DNA of 64,000 bases from the NCBI GenBank assembly GCA_034231615.1, contig CM067306.1, positions 65,623,790-65,687,789 of the forward strand. The letters run 5' to 3'. The position numbers and the translations under genes were made by a program. The notes beneath the pieces were generated by a model, which did no database searches, was not told the DNA's origin, and worked only from the letters and a program-made list of their open reading frames with translations. Origin of the DNA: Meghimatium bilineatum (taxonomy: Eukaryota > Mollusca > Gastropoda > Stylommatophora > Philomycidae). Shown here one piece after another: positions 30,401 to 33,400 of the stretch (position 1 is its first letter; every line of letters starts with the position of its first letter).

Positions 30401-33400
30401 ATTCTCAAACTCCCACTGGATCTCTATTGTAGCAAGGAAATGCTCCTACTAGATTTCCAGCAGGATGTAGTTCTGAGAATTGAAATGCTGTGTCACCCTT
30501 CTATTTGTGCCAATGTCCTGACACACCAGTCTTCTGTGAGAGTTTCTTTATGTATCTATTATTGTTCTATTTCTGGTGCTAATTCTAATCTTAATACCAA
30601 TATCCCATAATCTTAGAGAGAGAACATCAATTACAATTATGAGAAACTGCTGAATGGCTCTTCAGTGCCCAATGTCAGAATTATCTATACTTGTACCTTT
30701 TGATACTTTGGAAATGGTCGCCAGTGTAACAACTCACTCATTACCCTCAGCACCTACATGCACAGCACAAGTATGAAAGTAATTTATTGATCGCAGATTG
30801 CTTGTTGATGACTCAACGGCGGACGACTCATTCTTCAACTTTACAGAGCATGTTCATTGTTGAGTCATACTAAGTATGAGAATGCATGAGAGAAGTCCTG
30901 TGACACAGCTATAAAAGTGTGCTAAGCAGCTTTTATCTCCATAATAAAACTGCTCACGATTGTGATGAAGACACCATTAGATTCCTTGACAGTTTTTCCC
31001 ACCAGACCATGCAGAAAAACCTTAATCACACAATACTGCCAATGAATGACTGACCCATCAGCGTAGATTAATATATCCTTTTCTGAAGTCTTAGCATCAA
31101 TGAGCTACCTGACTTCTGCATCTACTCTCTCCCCCCCCCCCCCCCCAAATTTTTGTTTTTACTTATGAAGAAAAAGTATCATTTAATACAGGATGGACAG
31201 GTATTCACTTCTCTACAGGGGTGAGAATTTGCTAACAGGTATTTAACAGAAACATACAATTTAATCAGTTTTACAATTCACAGAACAAACACATGGAAAA
31301 TATAGTTAAAAGATTATACAAGAGACTGAATATTTGTTCATGTCAGTTAATCATATCCATAGGTCATTTTGCTGTTGCCCTGGTCAATTATTTATTTACT
31401 ATTTGTTAGTAGAGTGACTTTAAATCTAACACTACTATAAGAGAGGAAAGCAAACAAACCTATATATCTTCCTTCATTAGACAAAGGCGTTGGACTTACA
31501 TCGGCCATGTTCTCAGAATGAACAGCCTAAGAATTCCCCAGCAATCACTATATTGGGTGCCACCTGGAGTAAGAGGAAGAGGGAGACCTAGAGAAACTCT
31601 ACGAAGAACCATTAATAGAGAAGGCATGTCAATGAACCTAAACAACACGCAACAATTGAAAGACCTGGCAACACAAAGACAGAAATGGAAAGCTATGGTT
31701 TCTGCCCTATGCGCCGCCTATGGCCCTGGAGGAACATAACATAACAGTAGAGTGAATCTTTTGGTACAACAGTGAACCTTTTTGGTAGAACAGTGAGTAT
31801 TTTTAGAATTAATGAACACCTTTGGCTTGTTGTTTGTTTGTTTGAGAACCCCAGGAATTGCAAGCAATTAGCTCTTACTTCTTATATGCAGTGGGGTGGT
31901 TTTTCTGAGCTTTCTTGCATACCCAGGAGACTAGCTTTCTGCTTAGTTCAATGCTTATTGAGGAGTCTTCTACTCTGAGGGGGTCTACCACCTTTGGTAG
32001 GACCAAGAGTCTTTTTTTGGTATGACAGTGTCTTTTTTCCTATCAAGCACAAATATTGCCTAGGAAATTACTGGCAACTTACTAAGCACAAATATTTCCT
32101 AGGAAATCACTAGCAACTTACTAAGCACAAATATTGCCTAGGAAATTACTGGCAACTTACTAAGCACAAATATTTCCTAGGAAATCACTTGCAACTTACT
32201 AAGCACAAATATTGCCTAGGAAATTACTGGCAACTTACTAAGCACAAATATTTCCTAGGAAATCACTGGCAACTTACTAAGCACAATAATTGCCTAGGAA
32301 ATGACTGGAAACTTACTAAGCACAAATATTGCCTAGGAAATGACTGGAAACTTACTAAGCACAAATATTGCCTAGGAAATGACTGGAAACTTACTAAGCA
32401 CAAATATTGCCTAGGAATTCACTGCATGCACAAAACAACTGAGTTGATTACTACATGATGAATCAGACTTGTAACAAACTCATCTTTTTCTGCTTTTGTT
32501 CTCAAACTTCTGCAGATTAGCAGGATGTAGCCCTGAGAATGGAATGCATTATGTCACAGTTTACAGCTTTGTTGTAACACCTGAGCCGAAAGGCTGAACA
32601 CATCCAGTTCATGCACAGATTATGGGTCACTTTAAACCTATATGGGATGGGACAGCCAACTCCACCCCATAACCTCCTTAGTTGTCTCTTACGACATGCA
32701 GGTAGACAACAAACTGGCATGTAACAAACTTCATATTTATAATGAAAAGATGAAGAAAACTTACAGATGACTTCTTGATGACTGAAACAAGACCTTCCAG
32801 AACGACATCATTGACAAGAAGTGTTTGTATGGCTAGCTTGTCACTGCACAATGTCATCTTAGCAATTGAATCTGACCAACATAAAAACATATATTATATA
32901 GAACAATAATTCTTGAACATCACTCATCTATCATAACTTTACATCATTAACCTATCCTCATTTTACATCACTCAATTATCATCTTATATCACTCACCTAT
33001 CATAATCTTACATCACTCATCTATCATCGGCTTACATCATTAACCTACCTTCATCTTACATCACTCACCTACCATGAGCTTACATCACTCACCTACCATG
33101 AGCTTACATCACTCACCTACCATGAGCTTACATCACTCACCTACCATGAGCTTACATCACTCACCTACCATGAGCTTACATCACTCACCTACCATGAGCT
33201 TACATCACTCACCTATCATCAGCTTACATAACTTATGCATCATCATCTTACACCACTCCCAAATTATCAGCCCACATCACTCACCTATCATGGCTATGAC
33301 TGTTTCATAATCTTGTTCACTGTTCCCCAACCCTGTTAGAACGTTCATATAACTAGACATTATGTCCTGCATCTCAACCTGGCGCTGGGAACAAGTTAGA

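Follow-up and report, generated by a model that had tools for sequence, protein, structure and literature searches.

An intron that is built from copies of its own 5' splice site raises the question of how such an intron could arise, which of its donors is used and whether the remaining copies serve any purpose. We examined a case of this kind in a stretch of 64,000 nucleotides from the slug Meghimatium bilineatum (hereafter the window), where the intron follows the exon designated exon 9 of a probable NBEAL gene. The labels exon 9 and exon 10 keep the numbering of an initial annotation of this DNA. The explanation that we favor, and hold as a whole with moderate confidence, is that a duplication of the exon-intron junction seeded a minisatellite, that the outer donor is normally used and that the decoy donors are tolerated.

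Anatomy of the intron and its array

To describe the array, 16 consecutive units were read on the minus strand from position 33292, at steps of 24 bp save for one 21-bp step; the rows given by Tandem Repeats Finder with periods of 24, 48 and 72 jointly cover 32917-33292 (Table 1). The initial annotation had described the intron as consisting almost wholly of a 24-bp array whose units copy the donor and the 8 exon bases before it, one base away from the real site, and both statements are borne out. The array accounts for 368 of the 413 nt of the intron (89%). It also takes in the end of the exon, covering its final 8 bases, and the real donor keeps the register of the repeat; unit 1 (33292-33269) reads CATGATAG/GTGAGTGATGTGGGCT (a slash marks the exon-intron boundary throughout), with 8 bases on the exon side and 16 on the intron side. 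This exon-spanning unit is identical to the core unit at 21 of 24 positions and at 18 of the first 19, where the lone difference is A/G at -4. The sequence TAGGTGAGTGAT occurs nine times in the 64-kb window, always in the array (0.02 occurrences expected from shuffles), and the 19-mer CATGRTAGGTGAGTGATGT, with up to three mismatches allowed, occurs 12 times, again exclusively in the array (0.04 expected from shuffles).

Table 1. Positions of the exons, the intron, the array and the donor sites within the window
Feature	Position	Strand	Remarks
Exon upstream of the array (exon 9)	33285..33384	-	100 nt; frame 0; ends ...AMI + 1 base; open frame; BLASTP
Exonic part of unit 1	33285..33292	-	last 8 exon bases, CATGATAG
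Intron after exon 33384-33285	32872..33284	-	413 nt, 368 nt in array
24-bp array, 16 units	32917..33292	-	core of 6 near-identical units (33196-33053), flanked by degenerate units
True donor TAG/GTGAGTGAT	33276..33287	-	first intron base 33284
Decoy donor 1, +72 nt	33204..33215	-	
Decoy donor 2, +96 nt	33180..33191	-	
Decoy donor 3, +120 nt	33156..33167	-	
Decoy donor 4, +144 nt	33132..33143	-	
Decoy donor 5, +168 nt	33108..33119	-	
Decoy donor 6, +192 nt	33084..33095	-	
Decoy donor 7, +216 nt	33060..33071	-	
Decoy donor 8, +288 nt	32988..32999	-	
Dead units, by +1 base	33260, 33236, 33044, 33020, 32975, 32951, 32927	-	
Non-repeat tail	32872..32916	-	T-rich stretch, acceptor ...TTGGTCAG
Next coding exon (exon 10)	32765..32871	-	107 nt; donor TCT/GTAAGT

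We also scanned 16 exons, hand-picked from the exon-scan candidates with the other candidates dropped, for ungapped copies of their donor junctions in the next 1.5 kb. Exon 33384-33285 was the only one to beat its shuffles (best downstream copy 19/24; its 20 shuffles did not go above 18), and the other 15 exons did not exceed theirs. The corresponding scan for acceptor copies in the 16 exons, which had no control, gave a best value of 17/24.

The host gene and its surroundings

All exons considered here are predictions from sequence scans. With rough weights, exon 33384-33285 has an acceptor score of 3.4 and a donor score of 6.5. Both this exon and exon 32871-32765 are open, and the phases on the two sides of the 413-nt intron (1+2) are compatible; the predicted upstream exon 33964-33788 is likewise in phase, and a single frame can be read through three successive exons. 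BLASTP matched the exon 8-10 model to a fragment of human NBEAL2 (E 5e-12, 26/93 identities) and the exons at 19.5-17.1 kb to a human NBEAL2 fragment as well (E 2e-22, 36/85 identities); these matches are leads rather than tests, and the E-values are those of single comparisons. In the former alignment the gaps are confined to exon 9, upstream of the junction. The exon 9/10 junction itself is ungapped (MI/D in the slug versus ML/D, with only M and D identical), and exon 10 carries on the match. Moreover, when the predictions for five downstream exons (17.3-3.3 kb) are strung together without regard to phase, the product matches PF15787 (DUF4704, neurobeachin family) over residues 90-254 with a value of 1.8e-16. 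The domain match and the BLASTP matches support the NBEAL assignment made in the initial annotation, and the host gene of the array is probably NBEAL, within a family comparison that covered fragments of human NBEAL2.

Further searches gave little. Exons 9-10 alone matched no Pfam family above the cut-off, and the joined upstream model that includes them gave only a sub-threshold match (0.069). In three-frame translations of 27901-45600, the Pfam matches to RVT_1, DUF7322 and SH3_retrovirus were all sub-threshold, while a Cornifin match (1.7e-9) was taken as spurious because it is located on the array itself. A search of solved structures returned one non-significant match for exons 9-10 (0.36) and none up to 0.1 for the downstream exons. 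Among viral contigs, none of the 10 pattern matches to the exon 9-10 protein was confirmed, and among prokaryote genome contigs the 24-bp unit had no match; neither collection was made for animals, and the lack of matches carries no information.

Several other features were seen in the window. Tandem arrays make up 13% of it (54 Tandem Repeats Finder rows at a score of at least 60, 8533 bases), and minisatellites are therefore common here. The predicted intron that precedes exon 9 (33787-33385) is mostly a 46-bp-unit array (33424-33712) without strong donors. Downstream of exon 32871-32765, a 39-bp array (32045-32424) carries nine sense-strand copies of TTA/GTAAGT, which scores 0.8 in the rough matrix, near the 1.2 of the weak exon 10 donor TCT/GTAAGT; no wider copy of the exon 10 donor was found. 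An array with a 61-bp unit in about 23 copies (22021-23433) holds 23 strong donors (AAG/GTAAGT); they lie on the plus strand, opposite to that of the NBEAL model. The gene span also contains a retrotransposon, a minus-strand open frame of 696 codons with reverse transcriptase and RNase H (24471-26561). On the same strand, three concatenated predicted exons at 55928-60575 match elongation factor Ts (PF00889, 1.6e-10, residues 1-43) and probably belong to a neighboring gene.

Decoy donors and their predicted products

The complete motif TAG/GTGAGTGAT is present in the exon-spanning unit and in 8 of the 15 intronic units, and the donor has been lost in the remaining seven. The 'about 8 nearly identical donors' of the initial annotation correspond to eight decoys that share every base of the true site between -3 and +9, to which seven dead units have to be added. 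The two units closest to the true donor (33260 and 33236) are both dead, leaving 72 nt to the first intact decoy. The computed energy of the duplex with the U1 5' end is -11.4 at all nine intact sites, -2.5 to -4.8 at the seven dead ones and -5.4 at the exon 10 donor. The window has 16 minus-strand sites that score at least 6.5 in the rough donor matrix, nine of them in arrays and seven outside.

Each of the eight decoys would add 72-288 nt, always a multiple of 24, and would bring in a TGA two codons after the true junction. Retention of the intron would lead to the same TGA, so the earlier claim of a stop within two codons is true of every decoy and of retention as well. We also considered whether RNA structure hides the decoys. 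The predicted mean unpaired probability is 0.45 at the true donor and 0.30-0.41 at the decoys, a small difference in the expected direction and without a shuffle control, and this possibility was set aside.

Donor choice and the role of the decoys

The exon-edge donor would normally be chosen, since exon signals and co-transcriptional order are expected to favor the first site; in our rough judgement, it is likely that the outer site normally wins. A transcript spliced at a decoy (+72 to +288 nt) would meet the stop two codons on and would be directed to nonsense-mediated decay, and the decoys would represent tolerated noise rather than a device. That they have no selected function is, again by a rough judgement, fairly probable. 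Both the competition among decoys and its outcome are what we infer from the arrangement of the sites. In classical in vitro work, identical tandem donors reportedly often favor the intron-proximal site; such a preference would make decoy use heavy in the slug and counts against the explanation favored here. The dichotomy put forward in the initial annotation, in which either the outermost site always wins or isoform noise is built into the gene, is plausible.

The decoys might instead form a regulated poison array, kept in order to send a share of the transcripts into nonsense-mediated decay, with repeat number setting gene expression. All eight live decoys match the true donor in computed U1 pairing, all lie in the 24-nt register and give an immediate stop, and the core units are nearly identical, as such an array would suggest. 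However, recent expansion of a minisatellite yields identity of the core anyway, the donor is gone from 7 of the 15 intronic units, and the donor bases have been kept neither better nor worse than the others in the nine degenerate units, the six core units having been left out before the count. In this weak test, changes at TAGGTGAGT (15/81) were no commoner than changes in the rest (20/132, p 0.57). For GT alone, 5/18 positions were changed compared to 30/195 (p 0.19), and the six test variants gave p values from 0.19 to 1.0. With no excess of change at the donor bases, selection on the decoys is unsupported, and we regard a regulated poison array as unlikely.

The bold version of this alternative is a rheostat, in which decoys would compete for U1 and set the fraction of transcripts that enters nonsense-mediated decay; the NBEAL level would then be tuned by repeat number, which would vary between individuals. 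We think it quite doubtful. The dead pair beside the true donor, with its 72-nt gap, could reflect selection rather than decay of the array edge; if the rheostat were true, these two units would be a selected spacer. Tolerance of the decoys is retained as the default reading.

Origin of the array

Apart from one base, the six core units (33196-33053) are identical, and they carry G at -4, whereas A at -4 is common to the exon and eight of the nine degenerate units. This pattern fits an old A seed and a recent G re-expansion. At the array edge, the exon unit adjoins two units that are among the most worn, with 15/24 and 16/24 identity to it; two distal units likewise have 16/24. The exon unit has stayed near the consensus of the degenerate units (18/19 of the first bases), as expected if it is protected by splicing and coding. 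In the alignment, the match to the array gives out after 8-11 bases of the exon. What remains of exon 9 scores 15 against the unit (95% null 18), and the non-repeat tail together with exon 10 scores 16 (95% null 19 from shuffles). Two 40-nt pieces lie at the edge of chance, namely the start of exon 10 (16, 95% null 15) and the acceptor junction (16, 95% null 16), and both scores are below the maxima of 300 shuffles (23 and 19, respectively).

On these grounds, our rough judgement is that the array is likely a minisatellite that began with a duplicated exon-intron junction. A tandem duplication of about 24 bp over the junction (8 bases at the exon end and about 16 of the intron) would have seeded the array, which would have extended into the intron and then decayed at its edges. 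The core of six units would have been re-amplified recently, together with the A-to-G change at -4. Because the seed held the donor, every intact copy would be by descent a donor whose core sequence equals that of the true one.

The reverse order of events, in which an intronic minisatellite was there first and the exon then grew into its first unit, taking a new donor from it, seems improbable. Sequence identity alone is symmetric in this respect and arrays are abundant in the window, but the exon end aligns without gaps to the human NBEAL2 fragment and therefore looks inherited rather than captured from the array, and the match enters the exon by 8-11 bases only. It is more improbable still that the gene model is wrong at the junction or that the array length is an assembly artefact. 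The exons are sequence-based predictions, and assemblies may miscount units at the near-identical core; on the other hand, units are distinguishable at both array edges, and the three joined exon frames match the NBEAL2 fragment. Least probable of all is the gain of the whole intron by tandem duplication of an AGGT segment, with repeats giving both donor and acceptor, for although TAGGTGAG is present in the units, fission-yeast introns of 24-nt repeats have been described (PMC3629103) and the two 40-nt pieces score near their nulls, the tail plus exon 10 is at chance, the shuffle maxima exceed both 40-nt scores, exon 10 continues the NBEAL2 match, and the acceptor and exon 10 show no clear likeness to the array.

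Comparison with known systems

The closest precedent, known to us via citing papers, is the minisatellite of human IFI6 (6-16, G1P3), which, by the title of a 1995 paper by Turri, Cuin and Porter, is said to provide multiple splice donor sites. The tandem array of IFI6 overlaps the exon-intron donor junction, as does the slug array, whose unit 1 holds the exon end and the donor; its repeat unit is 12 bp, compared to 24 bp here. According to one citing paper, two downstream repeat units of IFI6 serve as donors and three mRNA species result (PMC4526556), which indicates that outer sites need not be exclusive; the minisatellite is also mentioned in PMC3618361. In the slug, 8 of the 15 intronic units carry a donor as good as the first and the other 7 do not. 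The IFI6 transcripts are described in the citing text as encoding different isoforms (PMC4526556), whereas all eight decoy products of the slug would stop two codons past the junction, and for this reason we consider the slug intron a variant of the IFI6 arrangement; isoform production is a property of IFI6 and perhaps not a defining one. In addition, donor use in IFI6 is reported from transcripts, while the slug decoys are predicted from genomic sequence.

Tandem repeats with splice-site motifs are also found in other introns. Two fission-yeast introns (SPOG_01682 and SOCG_00815) consist of 24-nt tandem repeats that resemble nearby exons and have such motifs in their units, as summarized in PMC3629103. 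There, the introns are presented as gained, with AGGC proto-splice sites and repeats in the surrounding exons, whereas the slug acceptor and downstream exon lack a clear repeat derivation. The proto-splice site is given as AGGT in PMC4974935, where the passages on intron gain by tandem duplication cite ATP2A1 and a potato RdRp gene as examples. Such gains resemble the slug case in that a duplicated segment with a splice-site motif creates splice sites, but the duplicated slug segment is a copy of a donor already present, with no sign that an intron has newly arisen. A looser parallel is intron 1 of C9orf72, in which repeat expansion is reported to activate cryptic donors that lie outside the repeat, downstream of it (PMC8031855). 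A prawn lectin family and chicken MUC2 were rejected as further cases, as the accounts of them concern other alternative splicing and do not, in the parts available, ascribe donors to repeat units. No second donor-bearing minisatellite was found in the open-licence literature, and its absence is not claimed.

Significance

An intron that repeats its own donor is an instructive variant of a known arrangement and not an unprecedented one. It offers a natural experiment on 5' splice-site choice, in which nine sites identical from -3 to +9 lie at graded distances from one exon and one acceptor, and in which every wrong choice would run into the same stop codon. How position ranks identical donors could be seen in RNA reads of the slug. 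More generally, where a minisatellite arises at a splice junction, additional splice sites would be a by-product of its growth.
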